From assembly GCA_029261655.1 (NCBI GenBank), contig JAJDAY010000009.1, forward strand, positions 1 through 64,000: a DNA stretch of 64,000 nt. Reading direction: 5' to 3'. This DNA comes from Nitrospinaceae bacterium (lineage in GTDB: Bacteria > Nitrospinota > Nitrospinia > Nitrospinales > VA-1). The translations under genes were made by a program, and so were the position numbers. Positions 15,213-56,352 of this stretch are shown here, in pieces. The stretch's first letter is position 1. Every line of letters begins with the position of its first letter. Below the pieces are notes generated by a model. That model was not told the origin of the DNA and did not search any database. It saw nothing but the letters and a program-made list of their open reading frames with translations.

Positions 15213-18200
15213 ATGGCATTTTTCTCAAAATTAATGCGTTCAGGAAAACCCAGGTATTCTGGAGGCCATCCCGAATTTGGAACTGAGCATCAGGACCCCA
15301 ACTCTCCCGTAAACGATTTATCATCCATCGACGATGAATTGGCATTTATTCTGGAACGTAAAGGAGCCAGAAACAGCGATCTTGCGACAACCGAAGACCT
15401 GAAGGATGCATCTGCAAACAATCTACCGCTCCAAAGGCCAACAGACAGCGGACCCGGCAGAAGGACGGGAGACAAGATCAAGCCTCTGATAAATAAAATT
15501 TTATCCGCTCCAAGCATCCAGGCTATTTTCCCATCATTAATTGATGATCTAGGTGTTTTTTTCAATAGTCAGACGGTGATCCTGTATTCTGTCGACCCTG
15601 TCAACAAACAGCTTTATTCCCATACGCTTCCTAATGGGGAAGTGGATGATTTTCGTCTGGAAATTTCTCCGGCAAGCTTCCCCGGATATTGCGCCTCCAC
15701 AGGGAAAACCATCAATATAGCCAATGCCTACTCTGCCGAAGAATTGAAACAATACGGGCCTGGATTCGCGCATAACACCTCCTGGGACAAATTGGCCCAA
15801 TCTAAAACAAGCTCCGCATTAGTCGTGACCCTGCCCTATGAAAAAAAGCTGGTGGGTGTCCTTGAGATTTTAAATAAAGAGGGGGGAGAAAAATTCTCCG
15901 AGGAGGACGAACGACAGGCCAGGGAACTTGCGACCACACTTGGGAATGCTCTTGTCAGATTGGGAATTGAACAAGTTGAAGAAAAGGTTCAATCAACTGG
16001 GCACGCAATTCATTCGGCCAAAAATTTAGATACTATTCTTCTGGATCTCAGCCTCAAGTGCTCCCTTTTGGATATATTTGGGGCGGAGCTTGTCACCCTT
16101 TATGCAATCGACCCTACAAAAAATGAAATTTATTCCAAAATAAAATCAGGGACTTCCTTCAAGGAAATCCGGTTTCCAATTTCTAATAAAGTCATTGCCG
16201 GTTGTGTGGCACGGGAAAGAAAGCCTTTAAATATTACCGATGTCTCAAATACCAATGAACTTAAAAATTACCACCCCGAACTCATTTTTGACAAGACCTG
16301 GGATAATAAAACGGGAATAACGACAAAATCCATGCTGGTTTATCCTCTCCTCCACAATAATAAAACGATGGGGATACTCCAGTTAAGCAATAAAAGGATT
16401 GGAGATAAATTCACTTCTTTTGATCAAAAAAATGCGTTGATCATTGCCGACCACCTTGCGCTGGCTTTTTACAACCAGAAAATGTTGTCCCGGAAAAAGC
16501 GCAACAAGTTCGCCTATCTATTAGAAAATGGAATTATCACCCAGGACGAACTGAACAATGCCATTTCCAACGCCCGAAATAAAGGCATCGATATTGAAGT
16601 CATCTTGCTTGGGGAACTAAAACTAAAGCGAAAAGATATCGGAAAATCTCTTGAAATATTTTATGAGATTCCATACACGGGTTACAGCGAATCCATCACT
16701 ATCCCGAATCAATTATTTGCCGGATTAAATAAAAATTTCCTTGCCAAAAACCATTGGGTCCCAATTGAGCTTTCCGCCACAAGCATCACAATTCTCATCG
16801 ATGACCCATTGAATCAGGACAAGATCAGCAACATCAAAATGATCTTTCCAAAAAAACACATCGATTTTAAAATTGGTTTGAAGGCCGACATCAAGGATTT
16901 CTTGAATATAGGCCTTCTTGACTCTTCCATGCCAGAGGAACCCGAAGAAGTTGGGCAGCCCACAGAAGAATTATCCTCTCTATTGGACGCCCTGACAGAT
17001 GAGCGGGCAGATACGACGATCGACATTCAAACGGGCGCCGACGAATCGGTTGACGCCATTAGCGAAACAGACAGCACCATCGTCCGCCTCGTCAATAAGA
17101 TTCTGATAGATGCCTACGATCAAAGCGTTTCCGATATCCATATCGAACCGGGATCAGGGAAAAACGACGTCCGGGTACGTTATCGAAAGGACGGCACTTG
17201 CAGGGTCTATCAAAGGATACCTTATCTCTACAAGCAGGCCATTGTTTCCAGAATCAAAATCATGTCCCGATTGGACATAGCGGAAAAAAGAATGCCCCAG
17301 GATGGCAAAATTAAAATGCGCTATGGAAGAAAAGAAATTGAATTTCGTGTGGCCACCTGCCCCACCGTGGGGGGCAATGAGGACGTGGTTCTTCGTATTC
17401 TTGCTTCCAGCAAACCGATTCCGTTGGACCAAATGAATTTTAGCAAACAAAATCTGGATTGGATTTATAAAATGGTCGCCAAACCCTATGGCCTCATTTT
17501 AGTGGTGGGTCCGACCGGTTCGGGGAAAACAACCACACTGCACTCGTGTCTTGGACATATAAACGATGACGAAAGAAAAATCTGGACGGCTGAAGACCCG
17601 GTTGAAATCACTCAGGAGGGTTTGCGTCAAGTACAGATGATGGACAAAATAGGCTTGAATTTTGCCAGAGCCATGCGATCGTTTCTGCGCGGAGACCCGG
17701 ATGTCATCATGGTGGGTGAAATGCGCGATCCCGAAACCGCTTCGATCGGACTTGAAGCCTCCCTGACCGGGCATCTTGTGCTCAGTACTTTGCACACCAA
17801 TTCGGCGCCTGAAACAATCACCCGTCTTCTCGATATGGGAATGAATCCTCTCAATTTCGCGGACGCTCTCTTATTAGTCGTTGCACAAAGGCTGGTCAAA
17901 ACATTGTGTAAGGAATGTAAGGAAGAATATCACCCCAGTAAAGAAGAGTTTGAAATCATAGTGAATGAGTATGGGAAAAAAGAATTTTCCACTTTAGGCA
18001 TCACCTACACAAAAGATTTAAAATTAATGAAACCCGTGGGTTGTTCTTCCTGCCTGGAAACCGGATATTTAGGCCGCCTGGCGATACATGAAGTTCTTTG
18101 TGCTACGCCGGAGATCAAAAAAAACATAATGCGTAAGAAACTGGTGGATGAATTGAGGGAAATAGCAAAGCAGGAAGGAATGCGGACTTTAAAACAGGAC

Positions 18201-18266
18201 GGAATTGAAAAGATTTTTCAGGGCCGGTGCGACCTCAAGCAAGTATTGACAGTCTCATCAGCATGA
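15213..18266 (+). CDS. GAF-GAF-MshEN-PilB/GspE-type ATPase, paralogue 1
   Basis: 1017-aa protein. A Ser/Pro/Arg-rich N-terminus of about 85 residues is followed by two GAF domains (about 95-255 and 275-428), an MshEN/GspE N-terminal domain (about 435-570), an acidic linker, and a T2SS/T4P assembly ATPase core from about 620. In the core, Walker A is VVGPTGSGKTTT (Lys772), the Walker B glutamate is in IMVGEMRDPETA, the His box is STLHTNSAP, and CKECKE plus CSSC form the tetracysteine zinc site. All catalytic motifs look intact. The GAF and MshEN parts suggest control by small ligands such as cyclic di-GMP. No pilin or platform gene is nearby. First of three tandem paralogues. Confidence 0.88.
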   Translation: MAFFSKLMRSGKPRYSGGHPEFGTEHQDPNSPVNDLSSIDDELAFILERKGARNSDLATTEDLKDASANNLPLQRPTDSGPGRRTGDKIKPLINKILSAPSIQAIFPSLIDDLGVFFNSQTVILYSVDPVNKQLYSHTLPNGEVDDFRLEISPASFPGYCASTGKTINIANAYSAEELKQYGPGFAHNTSWDKLAQSKTSSALVVTLPYEKKLVGVLEILNKEGGEKFSEEDERQARELATTLGNALVRLGIEQVEEKVQSTGHAIHSAKNLDTILLDLSLKCSLLDIFGAELVTLYAIDPTKNEIYSKIKSGTSFKEIRFPISNKVIAGCVARERKPLNITDVSNTNELKNYHPELIFDKTWDNKTGITTKSMLVYPLLHNNKTMGILQLSNKRIGDKFTSFDQKNALIIADHLALAFYNQKMLSRKKRNKFAYLLENGIITQDELNNAISNARNKGIDIEVILLGELKLKRKDIGKSLEIFYEIPYTGYSESITIPNQLFAGLNKNFLAKNHWVPIELSATSITILIDDPLNQDKISNIKMIFPKKHIDFKIGLKADIKDFLNIGLLDSSMPEEPEEVGQPTEELSSLLDALTDERADTTIDIQTGADESVDAISETDSTIVRLVNKILIDAYDQSVSDIHIEPGSGKNDVRVRYRKDGTCRVYQRIPYLYKQAIVSRIKIMSRLDIAEKRMPQDGKIKMRYGRKEIEFRVATCPTVGGNEDVVLRILASSKPIPLDQMNFSKQNLDWIYKMVAKPYGLILVVGPTGSGKTTTLHSCLGHINDDERKIWTAEDPVEITQEGLRQVQMMDKIGLNFARAMRSFLRGDPDVIMVGEMRDPETASIGLEASLTGHLVLSTLHTNSAPETITRLLDMGMNPLNFADALLLVVAQRLVKTLCKECKEEYHPSKEEFEIIVNEYGKKEFSTLGITYTKDLKLMKPVGCSSCLETGYLGRLAIHEVLCATPEIKKNIMRKKLVDELREIAKQEGMRTLKQDGIEKIFQGRCDLKQVLTVSSA

Positions 18267-18321
18267 TTCGTCCTGCCACTAAATTATTTGGCAAATACAA
18301 TACTCAGTCAGGAAACAATGA

Positions 18322-21300
18322 ATGAACTTTAGCTCAGGCGAAATAACCTCACCCAAATCCATTGAGGAATTGATTAAAGAAATCCACGAACGAGTGCGTT
18401 CCTCTAAGAATATGCGGGATTCCCTCCCGGACCTCATTGGACAATTGAAGGTTTTTTTTAATTGTGAGGCCATCACTATTTTTGCCGTGGACCAATCCGC
18501 ACGCCAACTATATTCAACAAGCCATATTTCAGATACAACTCCCGAAATAAGAGTGGAGATATCTCTGAACAACCTTGCAGGGTATGTCGCAGGAACTGGC
18601 AATCCCCTGAATATAGCAAATGTAAAAGATAAAGCGGAATTGGCTCAGTATCACCCACATTTATCTCACGACTCAAAATGGGATCCTGTTTTAAGTTTCG
18701 TTTCAAAATCTATGATTGTCGTTCCAATTCCTTATAAGAAAAATCTAATAGGAATCCTGGAAATCATAAACAAAAAAAACGATCTGGCATTTTCCGCCGG
18801 GGATTTGAAATTAGTACAGGATATCTCTCCTGCGCTGGGTTTGGTTTTGGTTAGGTATTATAACGACGCACTCAAAAATAATTCGCATGAAGACACTCCT
18901 GCCGACGCCATTGAACCCAACCTAACAGGCCAGGACGAAGACAATAATAGTGAATCTACACCGGATGAAGACACAACATCCTCAGAAGAATACAATATTA
19001 CAAATCAGGACGAAGACATCCATAGTGAACCCACACCGGGTGGCGACACTTCTACCGACTCCATTGAATCAAACGATACAGGTCAGGACGAAGACACCCG
19101 GCGTGAAAACACATCGGATGAAGACACAACTTCTGAAGAATCCGATATCATAAATCAGGATGAAGACATCCATAACGAATACACGCCTGACCTGGACGCT
19201 GAACCGCAGGATGTGTCCCTGGAAACCGAAATTTTATCAAATGAAATCATTGAAATTGACAACAACCAGGATATTTCCAACGCTGGTCTAAACCAGACGG
19301 AACTGGAGCCGGAAAATATTGAAGATCAGAATGTGGTTCAAGAAGAAACCGATTACCTCGAATTGGACAGACGGGCTGGGAGCAGACGAGACGAAGATAA
19401 AGAAAAGGAAATTCTGAAAATTGCTCAAGCGATCCACAACGGAAAAAATTTAAAGGTGATTCTTTCCGAGTTTAAGGATTCAATTCTGGATAATTTTGAC
19501 GCCGAAGACATAACGCTCTACGGATTGGACTCAACCAAAAATGAAGTTGTCTCAAAATTCCAATCGCGGGAAACGTCAAAAGAAATTCGCCTTCCTCTCG
19601 CCCACAGTAATATACCAGGCCATGTCGCCATGGCCAAAAAACCAGTAAATATTGAAAATGCTGAAAATCTGGAGGAATTAAAGTCATACCACTCGGAATT
19701 GGAGACCAGCGATCCGGAGAAAGATTCTTTCGGATATAAAACTCTGGAGTTATTAGCTTTGCCTGTAATGCATGAGGAAACTTTACTGGGAGTCCTGAAA
19801 ATCGTTAACAAACGAAATGGGACCATTTTCTCGGAAAAAGATGAAAAACGCGCATTCATTATGGCGGAAAACCTGGGATACGCCCTGGCAAAACAAGAAA
19901 AATTATCAAAACACAAACCGGATAAATTCAGCTATTTACTCGAAAATGATTTGATCACAGAAAAAGAATTAGACTCGTCACTTGCCTATGCCAAGAGCAA
20001 CAATATCGACATAGAAACGGTTTTGCTCGAACGGGTGGGTTTGAAGCGCGAAAGCCTGGGGTTATCATTGGAAAGTTTTTATGGTCTCCCCTATTATGGT
20101 TATGAAAAAACAATTGTCCTTCCTGCAAAAATTCTAGGGGGATTGAACAAAAATTTCCTCGCCAAGAATTTCTGGCTTCCCGTTAATTCCCACAACTCAA
20201 AAGTTGTGATTTTAATCAACGACCCCAGCAATCTCGACAAAATTCAGAACATAAGGCATATTTTTCCAAAAAAGGAACTTGAGTTTAAGGTCGGTCTAAA
20301 AATTGACCTCAACGATTTTTTAAATTCAATTTCAGGGCAGGACGAACAACCCGTCGCTCTTGAAAGAACCGAGAAAATATCTTCCCTCATCGATTCTTTG
20401 CTGGAAGAAAACAACGATGCTCAGTTAGAAACACAGTCAGATGACGATCTTAGCGAACTCAATGATATCAAAGAAACCGATAACGCGATCATTCGTCTAG
20501 TCAATAAAATTTTGACCGACGCGTATGAGATTGGGGCCACGGATATCCACATTGAACCTGGAATAGCGAAAGATAACATTACCATCCGATTCAGGAAGGA
20601 CGGGGATTGTTCGATCTATGAAGAAATACCTTTTCTTTACAAACATGCCATTGTTTCCAGAATAAAAATAATGGCCAATCTGGACATTGCCGAACGTCGC
20701 ATTCCCCAGGATGGAAAGATTAAAATGCGCTATGGCAAGGTCAATATTGAGTATCGTGTGGCAACCTGCCCCACGGTTGGAGAAAACGAGGATATTGTTC
20801 TGAGAATTCTTGCAAAAAGTGAAAGTCTTCCCCTGGGCAAAATGAATTTTACGGATCGAAACCTGCAATTGATTATTAAAAACGTGAGTACCCCTTACGG
20901 CTTGATATTGGTGGTGGGCCCAACCGGATCGGGCAAAACAACCACTCTTCACTCCTGCCTGGGTCACATCAACACTCCGCGGAAAAAAATCTGGACAGTG
21001 GAAGACCCTGTCGAAATAACTCAAAAAGGCATTCGGCAAGTGCAAACGATTGAGAAAAAGGGGTTGGATTTCCCTCGTGCCATGAGATCGTTTCTGAGGG
21101 GAGACCCCGATGTCATCATGGTCGGTGAAATGCGCGATAAAGAAACCGCTTCCATCGGCCTGGAAGCCTCGTTGACCGGACATCTGGTATTCAGCACCCT
21201 CCACACCAATTCCGCGCCGGAAACAGTCACTCGCCTGTTAGACATGGGAATGAACCCTTTAAACTTTGCCGACTCCCTGTTATTGGTTGTGGCCCAACGG

Positions 21301-21675
21301 TTGGTAAAAACTCTTTGCAAGAATTGCAAGGAAGATTACCACCCCACCCAGGAGGAATTCAGTATCATCGTGAATGAATACGGGAGGGAAAACTTTGAAA
21401 AACTGGGTATCCTCTACGATAACGATTTGACCATTAAAAAACCCGTAGGATGCGATGATTGTGATAATACAGGTTACTCCGGACGTACGGCGATCCATGA
21501 AGTTCTCGAAGGAACCAAGGAACTTAAGCGGCAAATAGTCAAACAAGCGTCGGGTGAAGAACTGAGAAATACGGCAATTGCAAATGGAATGTGCACCCTT
21601 AAACAGGATGGGATTCAAAAGATTTTCAACGGCGACTGCGACCTAAAGCAGGTTCTTGCCGTTTGTATTTTATAA
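18322..21675 (+). CDS. GAF-linker-GAF-MshEN-PilB/GspE-type ATPase, paralogue 2
   Basis: 1117-aa paralogue of the upstream gene, 55 bases after it. Order: a GAF domain (about 15-175), a very acidic Asp/Glu/Thr linker (about 190-360) that includes a tandem 51-residue duplication, a second GAF (about 375-530), MshEN (about 540-680), then the ATPase core. Catalytic motifs are intact: VVGPTGSGKTTT (Lys872), IMVGEMRDKETA, STLHTNSAP, and CKNCKE plus CDDC. The intact core should hydrolyse ATP and drive pilus or secretion assembly, or a related motor. The acidic linker probably acts as a flexible spacer. Confidence 0.88.
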   Translation: MNFSSGEITSPKSIEELIKEIHERVRSSKNMRDSLPDLIGQLKVFFNCEAITIFAVDQSARQLYSTSHISDTTPEIRVEISLNNLAGYVAGTGNPLNIANVKDKAELAQYHPHLSHDSKWDPVLSFVSKSMIVVPIPYKKNLIGILEIINKKNDLAFSAGDLKLVQDISPALGLVLVRYYNDALKNNSHEDTPADAIEPNLTGQDEDNNSESTPDEDTTSSEEYNITNQDEDIHSEPTPGGDTSTDSIESNDTGQDEDTRRENTSDEDTTSEESDIINQDEDIHNEYTPDLDAEPQDVSLETEILSNEIIEIDNNQDISNAGLNQTELEPENIEDQNVVQEETDYLELDRRAGSRRDEDKEKEILKIAQAIHNGKNLKVILSEFKDSILDNFDAEDITLYGLDSTKNEVVSKFQSRETSKEIRLPLAHSNIPGHVAMAKKPVNIENAENLEELKSYHSELETSDPEKDSFGYKTLELLALPVMHEETLLGVLKIVNKRNGTIFSEKDEKRAFIMAENLGYALAKQEKLSKHKPDKFSYLLENDLITEKELDSSLAYAKSNNIDIETVLLERVGLKRESLGLSLESFYGLPYYGYEKTIVLPAKILGGLNKNFLAKNFWLPVNSHNSKVVILINDPSNLDKIQNIRHIFPKKELEFKVGLKIDLNDFLNSISGQDEQPVALERTEKISSLIDSLLEENNDAQLETQSDDDLSELNDIKETDNAIIRLVNKILTDAYEIGATDIHIEPGIAKDNITIRFRKDGDCSIYEEIPFLYKHAIVSRIKIMANLDIAERRIPQDGKIKMRYGKVNIEYRVATCPTVGENEDIVLRILAKSESLPLGKMNFTDRNLQLIIKNVSTPYGLILVVGPTGSGKTTTLHSCLGHINTPRKKIWTVEDPVEITQKGIRQVQTIEKKGLDFPRAMRSFLRGDPDVIMVGEMRDKETASIGLEASLTGHLVFSTLHTNSAPETVTRLLDMGMNPLNFADSLLLVVAQRLVKTLCKNCKEDYHPTQEEFSIIVNEYGRENFEKLGILYDNDLTIKKPVGCDDCDNTGYSGRTAIHEVLEGTKELKRQIVKQASGEELRNTAIANGMCTLKQDGIQKIFNGDCDLKQVLAVCIL
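18904..19206 (+). repeat. Tandem duplication in the acidic linker (153 + 150 bases)
   Basis: Two in-frame units begin at 18904 (DAIEPNLTGQDED...) and 19057 (DSIESNDTGQDED...). They share the order TGQDED, SDEDTTS or PDEDTTS, NQDEDIH and TP. The second unit is one codon shorter. DNA similarity is visible, with scattered substitutions, so the duplication is not brand new. Confidence 0.75.
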
Positions 21676-21878
21676 CCTTTTAGAAATATAGAGTTACCTT
21701 CCTTCAACCAATAGTTGTTTTTCCTTCCTTATTTATTTTTTCCAAAATATTAAATTTTATGTTATTAAATATAGCTATAACCTTAAATTTTTCAATTTCA
21801 AACATCCACATCATCGGAAATTAATCAAAACATTCCAACAACAGGAATGGATGAGATCACCGATATTGAGCTACGATC

Positions 21879-24239
21879 ATGGGAAACCCCGAAAACACCC
21901 CAGCCGTCAAAAATACGCCGCCAAATGGATTGGGGAACCTTGAATCCTTTGTCTCCCAAATAAAGAATATTGATCTCAATAACGCATCGCTGGACTCTCT
22001 TACAGACAGCTTAAAGAGCATTTTCAATTGTGAATCAGCAACCCTTTTAAATTATGACGATTCCAAAAATGAGCTTTACTCCCGCAATTTCAGATCCCAT
22101 ACCTCAGAAGAAATCCGTTTTCAAGTTTCAGTAAATAATCTGGCCGGGTTTGTAGCCGCTACACGTAAGCCATTGATTATTAATGATTTATCTTCCAAAG
22201 AAGAACTGTCAAAGCATCACAAGGATCTCAAATACGATGACTCCTGGGATGAAAAATATGGTTTCAAGGCAAGTTCTGCAATTCTGATCCCACTTCCGCA
22301 CAAAAACAAATTGGTTGGAGTGATGGAAATTGTCAATAAGACCAATGGGAAGCCTTTTCTCGAAGCTGATTTTATTCGCGCCAAGGCAATTGCGCTGGTG
22401 ATGGGCCTGGCTTTAGCCAAATTAAAAGAACGCAGGCAAAACAACGAAGTAGCGGACATTCATGAAAATAACCACAAAGAAGAACCGAAGCTAACAAAAT
22501 TCAGTTATTTGATCGCCAATGGGTTTGTCACGGAAGATGAATTGACCCTTATCAAAAAGAAAAGTCAGGAGTCTGGAACAGACGTCGAAGACTTACTTGT
22601 AAACGAACACTATTTACGTCCTCTGGATGTTGGCAAGTCTTTAGAAACATTCTATTATATCCCTTACGAGGGCTATGATGAATCTACCAGCAAGCCCAAT
22701 TTGGATAACTATACAATTGATGTTGAAACTCTGCGAAGACACAGCTGGGTTCCACTTAAGAACAGCTCTTTAGGGATGGTGGTATTGATCAATGACCCGA
22801 CCGATAAAAATGTTACTGAAACAATAAAACGAACCTTTCCTGATAAAAATGCCGAGTTCAGGGTTGGATTGAAAATGGATATTCAGGAGTATATTGATGG
22901 ATTTTTTAAGGCTGAAGAATCCCAACCTATTTCTGAAACAGAAATTTTAGCTGAGGACAAAACTTTGGAACTTCTAATAAAAGAAGAACAGCAGACCAGG
23001 GCTCCCGAGAATCAGGTCGTGACTCCAGATACCAGCAACAAAATATTCGATGAAATGCTCTCGACTGCCATCAAGCAGGGTGTCACCGACGTCCATATAG
23101 AACCTGGAATGGAAGGCAAAAACCTGTTGATCAGGCTCCGCAAAGAGGGCGCTTGTCGAGTCTATGAAGAAGTTCCATCCAATATGCAAAAGGAAATCAT
23201 CAATCACATCAAAACATTGGCAGGGCTGGACCTTTCAGTCAATCAACTCCCGCAAAATGGAAAATTTGTCTGGTCTCTGGATTCAAATAAATATGAGCTC
23301 AGTGTCGTAGTGTTCCCCACCATTGGCAATCTCGAAGATGCCATGCTCCGGGTGGCTCCAATTGGAAAGCCTGTTCCCCGCTTCATCCCCATTACCCAAA
23401 TGGAATTTTCCGATCCGAATCTGGACAAAATAATGTCCAGAATCCATGCGTCCAAGGGGATGATTCTGGTTGTCGGCCCCGAGGGAACCGGGAAAACAAC
23501 CACCTTGCACGCCTTTTTGGGCCATCTGAACACTCCCGAAAAGAAGATCGTGACCGCAGAATCTCCGGTGGATATCGTTCAAAGTGGCCTGCGTCAAATT
23601 CAAACAAATCAGGAAATTGGCCTCAACTATGCTTTCGCTCTGGAAACTTTTTTATTAGGAAATCCCGATATCATCATGATCGGAGAAGTCGCAGATCCAG
23701 CAACTCTGAAACTTTGCAACGAAGCCGCCAGGGAACATCTGGTTTTCTCATCGTTGCAAGCCAGGTCCACAATGGACGCGATCCGAATAATGCGTGAAAT
23801 GAATATCGACCCCAATCAATTTGCTGAAACGTTTTTAATCATCATGGCGCAAAAACTGGTACCCAGTCTATGCGATGCCTGCAAAGAGGATTATCATCCT
23901 TCTCAGGATGAATTCAATATGCTGGAGAAGTTTTATGGGAGCGATAATTTTGCCGACCTTGGGTTTCAATACAATGACAATTTGACTCTCAAAAAAGCGG
24001 TGGGGTGCAAGCAATGCATCTTTACCGGGTATTCCGGTAAAATTGTCCTTCAGGAGGTTCTGGAAAGGACCCACGAATTGAACCGGCTCATTGCGGAGAA
24101 AGCTCCCTTAGAGGAGATACAAAATCAGGCGCTGAAAGATGGGATGATCACCCTGAATCAGGATGGTATTTATAAGATAATGAGCGGTGACTGCGATTTC
24201 AAAAAGATTCAGGAAGCCTTTCTTCCAGGCCGAATTTAA
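21879..24239 (+). CDS. GAF-MshEN-PilB-like protein with degraded catalytic motifs, paralogue 3
   Basis: 786-aa third paralogue with a single GAF (about 20-190) and an MshEN domain (about 205-340) before the ATPase core. Walker A is kept (VVGPEGTGKTTT, Lys539), as is a Walker B-like IIMIGEVADPAT. Other motifs are lost: the His box STLHTNS reads SSLQARS, the arginine of FRVATCPT is gone (LSVVVFPT), DIAEKR reads DLSVNQ and PQDGK reads PQNGK. The zinc cysteines are intact. It probably binds ATP but is a poor or dead ATPase, perhaps a regulatory subunit mixed into hexamers of paralogues 1 and 2. Not a pseudogene: the frame is fully open. Confidence 0.85.
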   Translation: MGNPENTPAVKNTPPNGLGNLESFVSQIKNIDLNNASLDSLTDSLKSIFNCESATLLNYDDSKNELYSRNFRSHTSEEIRFQVSVNNLAGFVAATRKPLIINDLSSKEELSKHHKDLKYDDSWDEKYGFKASSAILIPLPHKNKLVGVMEIVNKTNGKPFLEADFIRAKAIALVMGLALAKLKERRQNNEVADIHENNHKEEPKLTKFSYLIANGFVTEDELTLIKKKSQESGTDVEDLLVNEHYLRPLDVGKSLETFYYIPYEGYDESTSKPNLDNYTIDVETLRRHSWVPLKNSSLGMVVLINDPTDKNVTETIKRTFPDKNAEFRVGLKMDIQEYIDGFFKAEESQPISETEILAEDKTLELLIKEEQQTRAPENQVVTPDTSNKIFDEMLSTAIKQGVTDVHIEPGMEGKNLLIRLRKEGACRVYEEVPSNMQKEIINHIKTLAGLDLSVNQLPQNGKFVWSLDSNKYELSVVVFPTIGNLEDAMLRVAPIGKPVPRFIPITQMEFSDPNLDKIMSRIHASKGMILVVGPEGTGKTTTLHAFLGHLNTPEKKIVTAESPVDIVQSGLRQIQTNQEIGLNYAFALETFLLGNPDIIMIGEVADPATLKLCNEAAREHLVFSSLQARSTMDAIRIMREMNIDPNQFAETFLIIMAQKLVPSLCDACKEDYHPSQDEFNMLEKFYGSDNFADLGFQYNDNLTLKKAVGCKQCIFTGYSGKIVLQEVLERTHELNRLIAEKAPLEEIQNQALKDGMITLNQDGIYKIMSGDCDFKKIQEAFLPGRI

Positions 24240-44405: not shown

Positions 44406-45398
44406 ATGCCGCATAATATTGACGAGATAACGCGCAAAGTCGAAGAGGCCAGTTCCTTCATTCCAGCGCTCCTCAAAGAAATGGCCAAGATTCTGGTGGG
44501 TCAGAAATATTTGACCGAAAGGCTGATTCTCGGCTTGCTGACCGGCGAGCACATTCTGGTGGAAGGCGTTCCCGGTCTGGCCAAGACAACAGCCGTCAAA
44601 ACACTTGCCAGGGCCATCCACGCCGAATTCAAACGCATCCAGTTCACCCCGGATTTACTGCCTGCGGACCTGCTGGGGACTCAGGTGTATCAACCCAAAA
44701 CAGGCGAATTTTCCATTAAAAAGGGCCCCCTGTTCGCCAACATCATATTGGCGGATGAAATCAACCGGGCGCCTGCCAAGGTTCAAAGCGCCTTGCTGGA
44801 ATCCATGCAGGAGCGGCAGATCACCATAGGCGGCCAAACGTTCCGTCTGGATGAACCCTATATGATCATCGCCACGCAAAACCCCATCGAACAGGAAGGA
44901 ACCTATCCCCTTCCCGAAGCGCAGGTGGACCGATTCCTGTTTAAACTGATGATCGAATATCCCAGCAGGGAAGAAGAAAAAATCATCATGCAAAAAATGT
45001 CCCTGTCCAATGATCCCACTCCGATAAACCCGGTGGTCAAACCGGAGAACCTGTTCGGGGCAAGACGGGTGTTCGACTCGATCTATATCGACGAAAACCT
45101 GCAGGATTATATTCTGAATCTGGTCGCGGCCACCAGGGACCCATCCGCCCACGGTCTGGAATCCTATGCGAAAACCATTCAGTTCGGGGCGTCCCCAAGA
45201 GCTTCCATTTTTCTGAACCGGGCATCCAAAGCCTATGCCTTCATGCAGGGCCGGGGCTATGTGGTTCCCCAGGACATAAAATCCATTGGCCGGGATATCC
45301 TGAGGCACCGCATCATCCTGACTTATGAGGCCGAGGCCGAGAACCTCACCACCGACGACATATTGAATAAAATCTTCGATACGGTCGAAGTTCCTTAA
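44406..45398 (+). CDS. MoxR-family AAA+ ATPase
   Basis: AAA+ chaperone-like ATPase. Walker A is EGVPGLAKTTAVKTLA (Gly-Leu-Ala-Lys form typical of MoxR), then TPDLLPADLLGTQVY, Walker B ILADEINRAPAKVQSALLESMQE, sensor 1 MIIATQNPIEQEGTYPLPEAQ and DRFLFKL. 330 aa, usual. MoxR proteins act with VWA proteins encoded nearby to mature enzymes or envelope proteins. Its normal partner, the DUF58 gene, is 2.9 kb away, separated by unrelated genes. Confidence 0.94.
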   Translation: MPHNIDEITRKVEEASSFIPALLKEMAKILVGQKYLTERLILGLLTGEHILVEGVPGLAKTTAVKTLARAIHAEFKRIQFTPDLLPADLLGTQVYQPKTGEFSIKKGPLFANIILADEINRAPAKVQSALLESMQERQITIGGQTFRLDEPYMIIATQNPIEQEGTYPLPEAQVDRFLFKLMIEYPSREEEKIIMQKMSLSNDPTPINPVVKPENLFGARRVFDSIYIDENLQDYILNLVAATRDPSAHGLESYAKTIQFGASPRASIFLNRASKAYAFMQGRGYVVPQDIKSIGRDILRHRIILTYEAEAENLTTDDILNKIFDTVEVP

Positions 45399-45417
45399 AC
45401 AGGTTAAAGGAGATGTG

Positions 45418-45840
45418 ATGAACGATAAAACCGTTAGTGGTATTCACTGGAGTTTCTGGATAATTGGCGTTGTCACACTTATTTTTAATCTTATGGGCGT
45501 CCTCAATTACTTCGCACAAATGAATGCAGACTCCCTCGCTTCATTTCCTGAGCAGTATCTCCCGATAATCCAAGACCGACCCGCCTGGGCCACAGCAGGT
45601 TTTGCGATCGCCGTTTTCGGCGGCTCGCTTGGCTGTCTTTTGCTTTTACTCAGGAAGTCGTCTGCATTCTACGCGTTAATGGTGTCTCTACTCGGCGTAA
45701 TCGTGTCCATGATTCATATATTCCGAGTGGCCGGATTCAGTTCATTCGAGATTTGGGTTGGTGTTTTGATGCAACTGGTGGTGACTGCGTTTTTAATCTG
45801 GTATACAAAGCGGGCCGAGCAAAAGGGTTGGACCCCTTAG
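45418..45840 (+). CDS. Four-helix integral membrane protein, 140 aa
   Basis: Four hydrophobic segments (about residues 11-33, 55-78, 83-102, 112-132) make up most of the protein, with a basic C-terminus (KRAEQKG). Not assigned to a family by me; small four-helix membrane proteins of this type are often annotated as hypothetical. The ATG at 45418 has AAGGAG five bases upstream and is preferred over the GTG just before it. It lies 19 bases after moxR and is the first gene of the patch that splits the Bat locus. Confidence 0.7.
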   Translation: MNDKTVSGIHWSFWIIGVVTLIFNLMGVLNYFAQMNADSLASFPEQYLPIIQDRPAWATAGFAIAVFGGSLGCLLLLLRKSSAFYALMVSLLGVIVSMIHIFRVAGFSSFEIWVGVLMQLVVTAFLIWYTKRAEQKGWTP

Positions 45841-45898
45841 GAACAATTCCTGCTAATCGCCAGGTTACCTCTGGATTTTCGAACCGCTTTAAACAAAA

Positions 45899-46339
45899 AT
45901 GGACTATTTTGCAGAACTGGGCTATTTCGGCCTTTTTGTTGCGGCATTTTTAGCGGCGACCATTTTACCTTTAAGCTCTGAAGTGGTTTTAACCACTTTA
46001 TTGTTAAATGGTTTATCACCTGTAGCATTGGTCACTATCGCAACTGTTGGCAATGTGTTGGGGTCTCTCACCAATTATGCCCTCGGCTATTGGGCCAGCC
46101 TGGAAGTCATAAAAAGATGGCTAAAGATTTCTGAAGAGGAATATGCCCGGGCAGAACAGCATTTTGTAAAATATGGATTGTTCTCTTTATGTTTTGCATG
46201 GGTGCCTGTGATTGGCGATCCCTTAACCGTTATAGCCGGCATTTTGCGCATTCGTTTATTGTGGTTTGTTTTATTGGTCACTGCTGGCAAACTGATGCGG
46301 TACATCGTCGTCAGTTATTTAGCAATACAAATAAATTGA
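45899..46339 (+). CDS. YqaA/DedA-like (SNARE-associated) membrane protein
   Basis: 146-aa membrane protein related to the YqaA/DedA superfamily: ELGYFGLFVAAFLAATILPLSSEVVL near the start, GNVLGSLTNYALGYWAS in the middle and FAWVPVIGDPLTVIAGILR later match the re-entrant hairpin and Gly/Pro motifs of that family. Possibly a lipid carrier/flippase-type protein of the inner membrane. Start ATG without a strong ribosome site. Confidence 0.8.
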   Translation: MDYFAELGYFGLFVAAFLAATILPLSSEVVLTTLLLNGLSPVALVTIATVGNVLGSLTNYALGYWASLEVIKRWLKISEEEYARAEQHFVKYGLFSLCFAWVPVIGDPLTVIAGILRIRLLWFVLLVTAGKLMRYIVVSYLAIQIN

Positions 46340-46347
46340 AATGAGGA

Positions 46348-46365
46348 TTACCAGAGAAATAGTAA
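46348..46365 (+). repeat. Direct repeat copy 1 (TTACCAGAGAA type)
   Basis: 18 bases that match a second copy at 46952-46969 at 16 of 18 positions. The two copies bracket the glycosylase gene. Confidence 0.4.
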
Positions 46366-46371
46366 ACCGAA

Positions 46372-46402
46372 AATGTCTACTTTTCGATCCAAAGCGGACA
46401 TT
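46372..46402. repeat. Inverted-repeat element copy A
   Basis: AATGTCTACTTT and AAAGCGGACATT pair over 12 bases with one mismatch and one G-T pair around a 7-base loop TCGATCC. Related to copies at 46896 and 47311 (shared core CGACCCAAAGCGG). Confidence 0.55.
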
Positions 46403-46443
46403 CAGTTTTCCCAAGTTAGTTACAATAGCCCATAATAAGAGTC

Positions 46444-46875
46444 ATGCGATTGTGGTCGATACATCCGAAAAACCTCGATGCCAAAGGACTTGTTGCACTT
46501 TGGAGGGAGGGACTACTCGCTCAAAAAGTTTTGCAGGGAAAAACTCAAGGTTACCGAAATCATCCACAGCTCAACCGGTTTAAAAAGACGAGTGATCCAA
46601 TTACGGCCATTGGCAAGTATTTGTATCATGTTCATAAAGAATCATTAAGGCGCGGCTACAAATTTGATTTAAAGAAAATCAGTGACTACAGATCCAGAAA
46701 AAAGATAAATGTTAGCTCAGGACAATTAGAATTTGAGACCCGGCATTTACTTAAAAAATTGAAATCCCGTGATCCAACACTATATTTAAAGGTTCAAAAG
46801 CTAACGAAATTGGATGCTCACCCTATTTTTCGTGTCGTGCCTGGGGAAATCGCTGACTGGGAAATCACGATTTAG
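46444..46875 (+). CDS. Pyrimidine-dimer DNA glycosylase-like protein (T4 endonuclease V family)
   Basis: MRLWSIHPKNLDAKGLVALWREGLLAQKVLQG (residues 1-32, cited in parts) and GYRNHPQLNRF, then AIGKYLYHVHKESLRRGYKFD, match the pyrimidine dimer excision family (Pyr_excise). Relatives remove UV-induced pyrimidine dimers. The protein is 143 aa, normal. It has no clear ribosome-binding site. It lies between two copies of a short direct repeat and two copies of an inverted-repeat element, which suggests acquisition as a unit. Confidence 0.8.
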   Translation: MRLWSIHPKNLDAKGLVALWREGLLAQKVLQGKTQGYRNHPQLNRFKKTSDPITAIGKYLYHVHKESLRRGYKFDLKKISDYRSRKKINVSSGQLEFETRHLLKKLKSRDPTLYLKVQKLTKLDAHPIFRVVPGEIADWEITI

Positions 46876-46895
46876 GATGTCTCAGATTATTATTG

Positions 46896-46925
46896 AATGA
46901 CCGGAATCGACCCACAGCGGACGTT
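46896..46925. repeat. Inverted-repeat element copy B (degenerate)
   Basis: AATGACCGGAAT-CGACCC-ACAGCGGACGTT. The right half matches copies A and C well; the left arm has diverged so the hairpin is poor. Confidence 0.45.
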
Positions 46926-46951
46926 CAGGATAAGGATTAGGTAACGAGAAC

Positions 46952-46969
46952 TTACCAGAGAACAAGTAA
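46952..46969 (+). repeat. Direct repeat copy 2 (TTACCAGAGAA type)
   Basis: Matches the 18-base stretch at 46348-46365 at 16 of 18 positions. Confidence 0.4.
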
Positions 46970-46984
46970 TAGGGAGCTTTGAAA

Positions 46985-47227
46985 TTGAGCCAGTCAAAGT
47001 CAGAAGATAATTGGTTGAAAGATGCGTTGAATGATTCCACTTCTGAAGCATTTAAGCTGACCAGGGAAGAAGTCAGAAAAATAAAGATATTAAAACGAAA
47101 AGGTTTTAAGGATTTCGCGGAAGCCTATTATGAGTATCTCCAACTGGAAAAAAAAGAAGGTTCTCTGGATTACACTCTGGAAGAATTTTGTGAAAAAAAA
47201 GGGGTTCAATATCGGTCTCTGAAATGA
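46985..47227 (+). CDS. Small charged hypothetical protein, 80 aa
   Basis: Not recognised. Helical and highly charged (LTREEVRKIKILKRKGF, YYEYLQLEKKEGSLDYTLEEFCEKKGVQYRSLK). The last part, an EFCEKKGVQYRSL segment, looks like a small helix-turn-helix-like end, so DNA or protein binding is possible. TTG start at 46985 with GGAG 8 bases upstream; a TTG at 46979 is also open but too close to that site. Coding status rests on the open frame, composition and ribosome site. Confidence 0.5.
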   Translation: MSQSKSEDNWLKDALNDSTSEAFKLTREEVRKIKILKRKGFKDFAEAYYEYLQLEKKEGSLDYTLEEFCEKKGVQYRSLK

Positions 47228-47310
47228 TCGGGTATTTGCTGGCTCACAATGGCTGTTCTAAGTTGAAAGACAAAAAGAAGGCTAAAATAGAACCATATGG
47301 GTTAAGCGGA

Positions 47311-47340
47311 AACGCCTGCTTTCGACCCAAAGCGGGCATT
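47311..47340. repeat. Inverted-repeat element copy C
   Basis: AACGCCTGCTTT and AAAGCGGGCATT pair over 12 bases (one mismatch, one G-T) around the loop CGACCC. It ends 17 bases before the dioxygenase start. Confidence 0.55.
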
Positions 47341-47357
47341 TTCATGAAAAGTAAAAA

Positions 47358-48176
47358 ATGAAACAATCAAATAATATTCTTTCCCCCGTACTCTACCTAC
47401 CTCATGGTGGTGGCCCGCTCCCACTTTTAGGTGAAAAAAGTCAAGAGGATTTGGTGGTTTTTCTAAAAGAACTTCCCAAAACCATTACTCAACCTTCAGC
47501 AATTTTAATTATCAGTGCCCATTGGGAAGAACCGCAGGCGACCATAACCAGCGGCGATCAACAAAACATCATTTACGACTATTCAGGATTTCCTCCAGAA
47601 GCGTATGAAATACAATATCCGGCTTCTGGAAATTCTAAACTGGCTAAAGAGATTGGGAGTCTGGTTAAAAGAGATGGAATAAAAGTAAAGCTTGATGAGA
47701 AACGTGGATTCGACCATGGAATGTATGTGCCGTTAAAAATCATGTACCCTGAGGCGCAAATATCCTGCCTGCAGTTATCTTTACTTAAGAGCCATGACCC
47801 ATCCGAGCATATAGCTCTCGGTAAATCTTTAGCGAGTTTACGGAAAAAAAATGTTCTTATCATTGGTTCAGGATTTTCTTTTCATAATCTGAAATTATTT
47901 TTCCAGCCTGAGAAGGAAACCCACGATAAAAGTATCGCGTTCGACAAATGGCTAGTGGATACCTGTTCAAATTCTAATCTATTAGTTTCACAACGAGAAC
48001 AACAACTAACTGCATGGGAAAAAGCCCCCTATGCTCGATATTGTCATCCACGAGAGGAACATTTATTGCCATTACACGTATGTTTTGGTGCTGCAAGTTT
48101 GGAGACACCTATAGCAAAAGTGATTTACAATGAAGACTTTATGGGCGCGAGAACTACCGGGCTGCGATGGGGATAA
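47358..48176 (+). CDS. DODA-type extradiol aromatic ring-opening dioxygenase (LigB/YgiD-like)
   Basis: Class III extradiol dioxygenase family. Candidate metal ligands are the His in YLPHGGGPLPLLG, the His in IISAHWEEP and a later His in FSFHNL; the catalytic His lies in GFDHGMYVPL. The 272-aa length fits single-domain YgiD-like enzymes, which open catechol rings such as DOPA. The natural substrate here is unknown. It is the last gene of the patch inside the Bat locus; inverted-repeat copy C sits directly upstream. Confidence 0.87.
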   Translation: MKQSNNILSPVLYLPHGGGPLPLLGEKSQEDLVVFLKELPKTITQPSAILIISAHWEEPQATITSGDQQNIIYDYSGFPPEAYEIQYPASGNSKLAKEIGSLVKRDGIKVKLDEKRGFDHGMYVPLKIMYPEAQISCLQLSLLKSHDPSEHIALGKSLASLRKKNVLIIGSGFSFHNLKLFFQPEKETHDKSIAFDKWLVDTCSNSNLLVSQREQQLTAWEKAPYARYCHPREEHLLPLHVCFGAASLETPIAKVIYNEDFMGARTTGLRWG

Positions 48177-53711: not shown

Positions 53712-54521
53712 ATGCCCAGGTTTCAAACTCTTCTCAAATTTTTTAATAGTTTTTCTCCTAAAGTATTTCAGCTTTTCATTCTTACCTTAACTTTCTGGTC
53801 TGGTTCATTGGTTTCTGGCCATGCTGAAACAGCCGCCTTCAATATTCATGAAGGGATTGCTGATTATAAAAACCAAAATTTTGAACAGGCGGAGAACCAT
53901 TTTTCTAAGGCTCAAAAAGAAAATCCTGACAATTCAAAATTGAATTACAACCTCGCCAACAGTCACTATAAAAACGGCAGGTACCAGGAGGCGCTCAAGT
54001 CTTACTCTAATGCGACTGAAAAAAATACAACACCTGATATAGAAAAAAATTCTTTATATAATTCCGGCAACGCCCTTTATCGTATGGGCAAACTCGAAGA
54101 ATCCATAACGGCCTATAAAAAAGCTTTGGCATTGGACCCCAAGGATATGGACGCCAAGTTTAATCTTGAGTTTGTCCGGGAAAAATTAAAGGAAAAACAA
54201 CAGAAACAAAACAAACCGCAGGAAAAAGATTCCATGGACAACGACCAACTAGATCAGAACCCGTCGCCGGACAATGACTCTGACACCCTTGATAACGATA
54301 ACAATTCCACACGGCAGGAAAACCAGAAACCCTCTTCTCCTGAAGAATTTGAATCCGGAGAAGACAAGCCATCTGAACTGGCACAGATTCAGGAAAACTC
54401 CATATCAAAGCAACAGGCCGAACAATGGTTGAGCGGCCTCCAGGAAGACCTTAAAAAATTCAGCCAGAAACAAGCCCATGCGGAAAAAGGGACTTCTTCA
54501 CCTTCCAGCCGGGATTGGTGA
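53712..54521 (+). CDS. TPR protein of the Bat locus (BatC-like)
   Basis: Signal peptide or N-terminal anchor (FQLFILTLTFWSGSLVSGHA), then about three TPR units (FEQAENHFSKAQKENPDNSKLNYNL, YQEALKSYSNATEKN, LEESITAYKKALALDPKDMDAKFNL). The last about 100 residues are an acidic, Gln/Asn-rich low-complexity tail (DNDSDTLDNDNNSTRQENQ). This matches BatC. Probably periplasmic. 269 aa. Confidence 0.86.
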   Translation: MPRFQTLLKFFNSFSPKVFQLFILTLTFWSGSLVSGHAETAAFNIHEGIADYKNQNFEQAENHFSKAQKENPDNSKLNYNLANSHYKNGRYQEALKSYSNATEKNTTPDIEKNSLYNSGNALYRMGKLEESITAYKKALALDPKDMDAKFNLEFVREKLKEKQQKQNKPQEKDSMDNDQLDQNPSPDNDSDTLDNDNNSTRQENQKPSSPEEFESGEDKPSELAQIQENSISKQQAEQWLSGLQEDLKKFSQKQAHAEKGTSSPSSRDW

Positions 54522-54534
54522 CCTGGACCTTCCA

Positions 54535-56352
54535 ATGAAAATCAGCCCCCTCCCAATCACTGCTAATTTTCTGATAACATGCCTTCAGCTAATGCTGATG
54601 GCATTATTAGAAACGCCCGTCAATGCCGAGGATATCGGCCTCACTGCCAGAGTCGATAACAATGAAATTTCACTGGGAGATACTCTCCACTTATCACTCA
54701 CCGTGAAAGGGGTGTTGAATGCCCCGGAGCCTAATTTACCGCCCCTCTCTGATTTTCGCATACGTTCTTCGTCCACAGCTTCTTCCACGCAAATCATAAA
54801 TGGACAACGAACTGTATCCGTAACATACAACTATCAGCTGGTTCCGTTGAAAGCGGGATCGTTTACCATTGATCCCGCGATTCTAGAACTGGCTGGGGTC
54901 ACCTATCAATCCAATCCTGTCCTCATTGTCGTTTCAGAACCCGGCGCTCATTCACCTGCAAAAAAATCTCCGGCCTATATCGAAGCATTTGTTTCAAACG
55001 CGAATCCTTACGTTAATGAGCAGTTGATTTATACTTTCAGGCTTTATCGAAGAGTCCAGGCAAGAAATCTCGACCTTAGTATTTCCTTTGAAGACGGTAT
55101 TTTTCGCAAGGAAGATATGGGTGACGCAAAAATTTTTTCCCGCACGATCAATGGCATTCAATATCAAATCCATGAATTAACAACCGCCTTGTACCCTATC
55201 CGTTCCGGGGACGTTGAAATTTCTCCCGCAACTCTTGAAATCGATCTCCTCGCTAAATCGCCAAACTCTCCCAGACAAAGCCCTTTTCCGCAAATATTCG
55301 ACAACCGTTTTTTTGGAAGTCGTGCGAACTGGCTACATAAAACACTTCGAAGCCAACCCCTTGCGGTGAGCATACGCCCACTTCCAAAAGCCGGAAAGCC
55401 TGTAAAATTTTCAAACATTGTTGGAGACCTGGACATTTCGGCAACGATCGGAAAGAAGGAGCTAAAAGCTGGAGACACCACCACCTTGACCGTGACCCTG
55501 AATGGGTCGGGAGCCTTGAAAGGCTATTTGTTGCCCCTTCCGAAGTTATCGGACGGTTTTAAAATTTATCCCGACAAGCCGGAATTTAAATTATCGGTTC
55601 AGCAAAATACTTTGATGGGTGAAAAGATTTTTAAATTTGCTCTGGTTCCACTAAAACCGGGTCACAAAATATTGCCGTCTATCACCCTCTCCTACTTTGA
55701 TCCGGCCAGAAATAAATATTTGATAAAAAAAACAACTCCCATTTCTTTAACCATAGAACCTGCAGAATTTCCTGAAAACTTGAACTCGGCAGAAAATTTC
55801 AAACCTAAAAAAAGTAACACGAAAAATTCCATTGAAACCACGGGCGAAGATATATTACCCATCCACACCCGGCTTTCGGATTTTGAAGAAGTTTCAGCAA
55901 ACGGATCGGATGTTATTTTATTAACGGGGAGGCTGGTCGCCCCCCCGGTGCTGTTTCTTTTGTTCACGGTCTACATCCGGTTCAACCAGAAGTTAAAACA
56001 TGACAAAGCCTTTGCCCGCAACCGCAAGGCGTTTAAGATAGCCCGGCAAAAGCTCAAAAAGCTGTCGAGTTCATCAGGCCCGCCCCCCCGTGATTTCGCG
56101 AAAAAATTATCAGATATTTTTCGTGAATATGTGGGCAATAAATTAAATATTCAAGGAAAAGCCCTCACCTCTTTCGAAGTGGAACAAAAGCTGATTGACC
56201 AGGATTATCCAAAAGAACAGGCGGAGCAAACCCGGGTATTATGGGGAAAATATGAATCCCTGCAATATGCCCCCACCACCGATTCGAAAAATAATCTCGA
56301 CATGATCGATGAATCGTTGCGCTTATTGAATCAACTTGAAAAAAAATCATGA
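54535..56352 (+). CDS. BatD protein
   Basis: Signal peptide (TANFLITCLQLMLMALLETPVNA), then several immunoglobulin-like BatD (oxygen-tolerance) domains: ARVDNNEISLGDTLHLSLTVKG, the TNYQLVPLKAG-like block (NYQLVPLKAGSFTIDP), YVNEQLIYTFRLYRRVQ and later KAGDTTTLTVTLNGSGAL. One transmembrane helix (VAPPVLFLLFTVYIRF) and a C-terminal cytoplasmic helical part follow. The ATG at 54535 gives the clean signal; an in-frame ATG at 54478 lies inside the previous gene. 605 aa. Overlaps batE by ATGA. Confidence 0.92.
   Translation: MKISPLPITANFLITCLQLMLMALLETPVNAEDIGLTARVDNNEISLGDTLHLSLTVKGVLNAPEPNLPPLSDFRIRSSSTASSTQIINGQRTVSVTYNYQLVPLKAGSFTIDPAILELAGVTYQSNPVLIVVSEPGAHSPAKKSPAYIEAFVSNANPYVNEQLIYTFRLYRRVQARNLDLSISFEDGIFRKEDMGDAKIFSRTINGIQYQIHELTTALYPIRSGDVEISPATLEIDLLAKSPNSPRQSPFPQIFDNRFFGSRANWLHKTLRSQPLAVSIRPLPKAGKPVKFSNIVGDLDISATIGKKELKAGDTTTLTVTLNGSGALKGYLLPLPKLSDGFKIYPDKPEFKLSVQQNTLMGEKIFKFALVPLKPGHKILPSITLSYFDPARNKYLIKKTTPISLTIEPAEFPENLNSAENFKPKKSNTKNSIETTGEDILPIHTRLSDFEEVSANGSDVILLTGRLVAPPVLFLLFTVYIRFNQKLKHDKAFARNRKAFKIARQKLKKLSSSSGPPPRDFAKKLSDIFREYVGNKLNIQGKALTSFEVEQKLIDQDYPKEQAEQTRVLWGKYESLQYAPTTDSKNNLDMIDESLRLLNQLEKKS

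Follow-up and report, generated by a model that had tools for sequence, protein, structure and literature searches.

Tandem GAF-fused PilB-type ATPases in a Nitrospinaceae bacterium: two intact motors and a conserved candidate pseudo-ATPase

The first 64,000 nucleotides of contig JAJDAY010000009.1 (assembly GCA_029261655.1, a Nitrospinaceae bacterium; hereafter the window) carry three tandem genes for type II/IV assembly ATPases, which we call copies 1, 2 and 3. The evidence supports well a set made of two intact, sensor-fused PilB-type motors, which probably replace the pilus extension ATPase PilB, and a conserved pseudo-ATPase. What is new here, judging from sequence profiles, is that the genome (G000; 3.1 Mb assembly, 92% complete) has a full type IVa pilus set and a type II secretion system (T2SS) with its own GspE, yet neither it nor its order has a canonical PilB. 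On balance we favor copies 1 and 2 as type IVa pilus extension motors that replace canonical PilB in the order, with copy 3 as a constrained regulatory pseudo-ATPase.

The three open reading frames (ORFs) are co-directional on the forward strand, uninterrupted, and separated by gaps of 55 bp (copies 1 and 2) and 203 bp (copies 2 and 3). A preliminary description of the window had their coordinates and lengths exactly right (1017, 1117, and 786 amino acids) and had read the products as GAF and MshEN domains fused to an assembly ATPase, and Pfam finds these domains in all three. Copies 1 and 2 comprise two GAF domains, MshEN, and T2SSE (398 and 382 bits), and copy 3 comprises one GAF domain, MshEN, and T2SSE (239 bits); all three exceed the T2SSE cut-off of 24.9 bits, which places them among PilB/GspE-type ATPases. 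In two relatives (G001 and G003), the copy 3 orthologue has room, judging by its length, for two GAF domains. In profile scores, copies 1 and 2 are PilB-like rather than GspE-like: TIGR02538 (PilB) and TIGR02533 (GspE) give 511 vs 460 bits for copy 1, 492 vs 453 for copy 2, and 312 vs 264 for copy 3, whereas the GspE of G000 shows the opposite preference to copies 1 and 2 (628 vs 677). None of the three copies reaches the equivalog cut-off for PilB (675.65) or for GspE (630.25; a GspE would also be expected to lie in a gsp operon).

Catalytic residues were mapped by aligning the copies with HMMER onto Geobacter metallireducens PilB (5tsg, in which the chain position equals the residue number plus 20, as verified on T411, H413, H420, R257, R271, R286, E395, and E400), with roles taken from the structural literature (PMC5424180). 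In PilB, one packing unit uses R271 and R286 to read the nucleotide of its neighbor, H420 touches the gamma-phosphate and the neighbor’s T411, and E400 is a pore-lining residue. Throughout the PilT/PilB family, the arginine fingers and the His of the His box are described as conserved or highly conserved, and mutating these motifs impairs activity in family members (PMC5424180). Copies 1 and 2 retain E357, E395, T411, H413, H420, R271, R286, and E400, that is, Walker A, the catalytic Glu, the Asp-box Glu, both arginine fingers, and the His-box His are all in place, as first proposed. Copy 3 lacks the full set. It keeps the Walker A Lys and Thr, E395 (E603), R286 (R491), H413 (H620), and the tetra-cysteine zinc site, and it carries S475 for R271, R618 for T411, Q627 for H420, A608 for the pore residue E400, D565 for the Mg-binding E357, and E535 for T327. 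It had been described as keeping Walker A and losing the His box and conserved arginines: the quoted motifs are present as written and R271, T411, and H420 are lost, but one finger (R286) is kept, as are the catalytic Glu and the zinc cysteines. The loss of “DIAEKR”, also put forward as a key change, was not weighted because it is absent from the residues given a role in PMC5424180.

The changes in copy 3 are not peculiar to one genome. The losses of R271, T411, and H420 are common to the orthologues in the other four genomes of its genus (G001–G004; the genus, g1, comprises G000–G004), which additionally lack H413, and the orthologues in g2 (G005 and G013) have lost the catalytic Glu too (VGA/VDA). 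Nor are these substitutions common in active members: they occur in none of ~55 intact family members and are seen only in other degenerate copies. The frame is neither absent nor shifted in the congeners, being open in all four (791–961 amino acids). The ratio of nonsynonymous to synonymous substitution (ω; IQ-TREE MGK+F3X4) for the T2SSE domain is 0.061, 0.102, and 0.089 in copies 1, 2, and 3, which puts copy 3 within the range of the other two, and the full-length values are 0.127, 0.186, and 0.163; all are approximate because synonymous divergence is high. Together, the losses common to the orthologues and this purifying selection support the view, already advanced in the preliminary description, that copy 3 is a putative pseudoenzyme under selection. 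Two observations count against it: synonymous sites are near saturation (NG86 dS ~1–3), and R286 and E395 are retained, so some residual ATPase activity in copy 3 is possible.

We rejected on ω and on stop-codon simulation the very improbable alternative that copy 3 became a pseudogene recently and has an open frame only by chance: loss does occur at the locus, where copy 2 of G001 has decayed to fragments of both ends with many stops (L058:11467-12615), but copy 3 is open in five genus members at 22–33% nucleotide divergence, whereas simulated unconstrained substitution at the observed divergence predicts 18–24 stops per gene, and it has orthologues in two further genera. As copies 1 and 3 of G001 are intact, the decay of copy 2 beside an open copy 3 serves as an internal control for copy 3 retention.

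That copy 3 is no pseudoenzyme but an active ATPase working by a changed mechanism also seems unlikely to us. The copies of the genus still have the Walker A Lys and Thr, the catalytic Glu, R286, and the zinc site, and strong purifying selection would suit an active enzyme as well. However, all five orthologues of the genus have lost R271 and H420, although the family as a whole conserves the arginine fingers and this His; the g2 orthologues are also without the catalytic Glu, and mutations in these motifs disrupt the activity of family members (PMC5424180). Copy 3 has probably lost its ATPase activity. The fold appears to be retained: AlphaFold2 models residues 390–780 in 10-residue blocks with predicted local distance difference test (pLDDT) scores of 77–96, except one at 63, and Foldseek matches the predicted motor to PilB 5tsh (E 1.5e-40). 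The predicted arrangement of domains is not to be trusted because the overall predicted TM-score (pTM) is only 0.47.

To place copies 1 and 2 in a cellular system, we consider the other assembly ATPases of the genome. G000 has six T2SSE genes: copies 1–3, GspE, PilT, and PilU. GspE (677 bits against the TIGR02533 cut-off of 630) lies beside gspF, with gspD further along, and no canonical PilB is found among the six. The type IVa pilus set is otherwise complete (PilT, PilU, PilC, PilM-N-O-P-Q, and pilins); on contig C17, the PilT/PilU cluster includes PilC and PilS, and PilM-N-O-P-Q and the pilins lie elsewhere on the same contig. The absence of PilB is not merely a gap in one assembly, because TIGR02538 gives no match above cut-off in any PilT-bearing genome of the order (39 genomes), whereas it does in 4 of 9 PilT-bearing genomes of the sister families. 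Seven genomes that are 90–97% complete (G000, G002, G009, G024, G042, G046, and G048) have PilT and PilU with only GspE and GAF-PilB as extension-type ATPases, and in one of them, G042 (97% complete), GspE is missing too.

Of 64 genomes from the order, 35 have both GAF-PilB and PilT and 18 have neither, with 7 having GAF-PilB only and 4 PilT only (Fisher p 5e-7, a test that ignores relatedness among the genomes). Nine of these genomes were added after the hypothesis had been formed; 8 fit and 1 (G062) does not. With a full pilus set, no canonical PilB, and GAF-PilB tracking PilT, copies 1 and 2 are probably the extension motors; that pilus extension would require them is supported only by the lack of another candidate and by the co-occurrence with PilT. 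A second GspE/PilB-like type, which we call T2, was rejected as the missing PilB: it is absent from several PilT-bearing genomes that are at least 90% complete and present in G011 (98% complete), which is without PilT. T2 is found in ~20 genomes and in one of them, G027 (L100:4232-5959), stands beside a histidine kinase and an NtrC-type regulator. A separate observation concerns the retraction ATPase of G002 (C14:69390-70409), whose PilT frame contains one TAA stop that could reflect either an error in sequencing or a genuine break in the gene.

Several facts speak against a role in pilus extension. The pilus genes are not adjacent to the ATPase genes, and the connection is through genome content alone. 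G062 (94% complete) has PilT and PilU but no GAF-PilB, and carries another GspE/PilB-like gene; here, T2 could be the extension motor. G035, G052, and G054 (71–72% complete) likewise have PilT and no GAF-PilB, while PilT was not detected in G030 and G036 (92% and 94% complete), which have GAF-PilB. Most of the genomes are draft or metagenome assemblies and are phylogenetically non-independent. GAF-PilB presence also tends to accompany that of GspE; its link with PilT is the better one, though not the sole one.

The genomes with GAF-PilB but no detected PilT, and the tendency of GAF-PilB to accompany GspE, would fit a different role, in which copies 1–3 power something else, such as a second secretion or competence endopilus, or act as signaling proteins, as would the lack of any pilus gene adjoining the locus in the genomes read. 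We give this alternative a low probability. There is no spare platform protein in G000, because only PilC and GspF exist, each beside its own ATPases (PilT/PilU and GspE, respectively); PilT and PilU would be useless without an extension motor; and five GspE-positive genomes lack both PilT and GAF-PilB. Extension of the type IVa pilus thus remains the role we prefer for copies 1 and 2.

A tree built from 79 proteins unites the GAF-MshEN ATPases in a single clade, separate from canonical PilB and GspE. Copy 1 belongs to clade A, which adjoins gyrB/parE across the family, and copy 2 to clade B. Clade C, with copy 3, comprises the five g1 genomes, G008, and g2 (G005 and G013), and has a long stem and short tips; wherever a g1 genome has kept the full triplet, the clade C gene closes the tandem, as it also does in G008 and G013. 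Within the sampled phylum, GAF-PilB matches at E ≤1e-150 are restricted to the order and two class-level genomes. Further degenerate GAF-PilB copies occupy the clade A slot in g3 (G018 L068:8008-11220; G014 L069:8171-11194), and one occurs in another family (G038 L067:10913-14287). When all are included, these copies group with clade C, probably through long-branch attraction, and topology tests reject neither placement (p-AU 0.31 and 0.49 for clade C, and 0.60 when the g3 pair is placed with clade B). Tests of a clade A vs a clade B origin for copy 3, and of one vs several degenerations, do not decide, the all-degenerate clade being long-branched. Only gene position suggests separate origins of the degenerate copies; the similar inactive paralogues in g3 and f3 may have arisen separately.

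The sensor domains raise the matter of ligand input. MshEN had been proposed as a cyclic di-GMP-type input. MshEN domains that bind this ligand have two RLGxx(L/V/I)(L/V/I)xxG...LxxxLxxQ half-motifs (PMC5013675), which are not present in the MshEN domains of copies 1–3, where KFA or KFS stands for RLG and the Gln is missing. We rejected cyclic di-GMP gating via MshEN because the binding motif is absent from all three. For the GAF domains, copies 1 and 2 carry a single NKFDE-type motif (NKXnFX3DE) apiece, and in copy 3 the motif ends in DF instead of DE; this motif alone is no proof of binding. The copy 3 GAF domain matches cyclic-nucleotide GAF structures (cGMP-specific phosphodiesterase, PDE2A, and adenylate cyclase), and two class III cyclase genes are present. 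A stand-alone cyclic-nucleotide-binding protein is encoded between PilU and PilC in two genera (G000 C17, L087:10936-11346; G027, L100:15148-15570). In G059, GAF-PilB is flanked by a divergent PilT-family ATPase with N-terminal cyclic-nucleotide-binding and MshEN domains (L055:2623-4482) and followed by a stand-alone cyclic-nucleotide-binding protein (L055:7858-8364). These data hint at a possible cyclic-nucleotide input via the GAF domains. We also noted by eye that canonical PilBs of a sister family (G055 L093:2405-4651; G059 L094:1273-3516) have a C-terminal extension resembling a cyclic-nucleotide-binding domain.

We propose that copies 1 and 2 would drive type IVa pilus extension, with the other pilus genes on another contig. 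Binding of a small ligand to their N-terminal GAF domains would set a state that could pass by way of MshEN (N1), the domain that in PilB is thought to face the stator, to a hexameric motor turning PilC. Copy 3 would be a duplicated motor subunit that has lost the hydrolysis-coupling residues R271, H420, T411, and E400; with its nucleotide pocket, catalytic Glu, one finger, and predicted fold, it should bind nucleotide and pack, but should not sense or couple hydrolysis normally. It is most likely a nucleotide-binding, ligand-sensing regulatory subunit. Because the nucleotide pocket is kept and R271, H420, T411, and E400 are lost, it would suit braking or gating in a mixed ring with copies 1 and 2. 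Alternatively, copy 3 could form its own ring, as PilU does relative to PilT, and be a dependent partner of the motor or a competitor at the platform, or stack on it, rather than part of a mixed hexamer. This arrangement has somewhat less than an even chance in our estimate. Self-assembly is plausible because the predicted fold and one finger are kept, and the close precedent tested in vivo, PilT/PilU overexpression genetics in Vibrio cholerae, argued against intermixing in mixed hexamers (PMC6762196), whereas PilB/TfpB hetero-oligomers in Acinetobacter baylyi are still considered possible (PMC11656802). The complete model, in which PilB was replaced by GAF-sensor-fused motors, some lineages added a pseudo-ATPase, and ligand and non-hydrolyzing subunits gate extension in a hetero-oligomeric ring, is a tentative hypothesis that we consider rather doubtful as a whole.

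The locus lies outside any pilus operon. Upstream of the tandem is gyrA/parC-gyrB/parE, and downstream, on the opposite strand, is trmFO-topA-dprA; gyrB/parE and trmFO-topA-dprA bracket the ATPase locus across the order in the genomes read, and the idea that it belongs to a pilus operon was rejected since no pilus gene adjoins it in any of them. The earlier statement that no pilin, platform, or secretin gene is nearby agrees with those parts of the window that were read, but elsewhere the same genome has all three kinds. In two relatives, dprA appears to be split or shortened (L063:816-1909 in G009; L064:827-1201 in G021). Elsewhere in the window, a low-GC stretch (~40%) at 45400-47360 with several small ORFs (45–146 amino acids) follows a moxR-like gene (44406-45398) and precedes a LigB-type gene, beyond which lies a batD-like gene (54478-56352).

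Table 1. Coordinates, in the window, of the three ATPase genes and of their domains and motifs (aa, amino acid positions)
Feature	Position	Strand	Basis or remark
Copy 1 (clade A), GAF-GAF-MshEN-T2SSE, 1017 aa; catalytic motifs all intact; candidate pilus extension motor	15213..18266	+	
Copy 1 GAF domain 1 (aa 101-247)	15513..15953	+	Pfam PF13185; NKEGGEKFSEEDE motif
Copy 1 GAF domain 2 (aa 287-418)	16071..16466	+	Pfam PF01590
Copy 1 MshEN (aa 494-565), cyclic di-GMP motif RLG..Q lost	16692..16907	+	Pfam PF05157; motif compared with PMC5013675
Copy 1 T2SSE motor domain (aa 619-1012)	17067..18248	+	Pfam; PilB structures matched at E 1e-100 to 1e-105
Copy 2 (clade B), GAF-GAF-MshEN-T2SSE, 1117 aa; catalytic motifs all intact; GAF domains separated by a long acidic linker	18322..21675	+	
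Copy 2 T2SSE motor domain (aa 719-1112)	20476..21657	+	Pfam
Copy 3 (clade C), GAF-MshEN-T2SSE, putative pseudo-ATPase, 786 aa	21879..24239	+	
Copy 3 sole GAF domain (aa 38-179)	21990..22415	+	Pfam
Copy 3 MshEN (aa 261-348)	22659..22922	+	Pfam
Copy 3 T2SSE motor domain (aa 388-777), predicted PilB-like fold	23040..24209	+	Pfam; AlphaFold2/Foldseek
Copy 3 N2D arginine-finger stretch (aa 470-491): R271 lost (S475), R286 kept (R491)	23286..23351	+	Alignment to G. metallireducens PilB 5tsg
Copy 3 Walker A (aa 532-541, VGPEGTGKTT): Lys and Thr retained, Glu in place of T327	23472..23501	+	
Copy 3 Asp box (aa 559-566, TAESPVDI): Asp565 in place of the Mg-binding E357	23553..23576	+	
Copy 3 Walker B/catalytic Glu (aa 596-603, PDIIMIGE): E395 equivalent kept	23664..23687	+	
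Copy 3 His box (aa 618-630, REHLVFSSLQARS): Arg for T411, Gln for H420	23730..23768	+	

The set is a variant of known machinery and not a new kind of machine. Its closest relative is PilB (G. metallireducens 5TSG/5TSH; Thermus PilF), which gives the best fold and sequence matches and shares the MshEN-type N1 domain, N2D, the T2SSE core, and the tetra-cysteine zinc site, as well as, in copies 1 and 2, Walker A and B, the Asp and His boxes, and the arginine fingers. Unlike PilB, the copies have one or two N-terminal GAF domains, form their own clade, and lie outside a pilus cluster; copies 1 and 2 fall under the TIGR02538 equivalog cut-off (511 and 492 vs 676), and copy 3 is without R271, T411, H420, and E400. 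PilB and TfpB of A. baylyi offer a parallel in that more than one extension-type ATPase apparently serves one pilus, possibly as a hetero-complex (PMC11656802), but TfpB alone supports pilus assembly, no GAF fusion is described for it, and copies 1 and 2 score 395 and 363 against the TfpB model cut-off of 850. In PilT/PilU, a second paralogue needs or modulates the primary motor (PMC6762196), but this pair acts in retraction, not extension, and PilU is itself a working ATPase. The MshE/MshEN cyclic di-GMP receptors have the same Pfam domain before the motor but keep the RLGxx..G..LxxxLxxQ motif that is replaced in all three copies (KFA/KFS, no Gln). Among open-licence papers, we found nothing direct on Nitrospinota PilB, GAF-PilB fusions, or pilus pseudo-ATPases.

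Whether type IV pilus ATPases form mixed rings, and why several extension ATPases are kept, are open questions (PMC11656802). Two intact motors and one conserved, apparently non-hydrolyzing paralogue provide a natural set that makes the mixed-ring question testable on defined proteins. They show how a marine bacterial order can lack canonical PilB while keeping PilT and PilU, and suggest that the motor itself incorporates ligand sensing.

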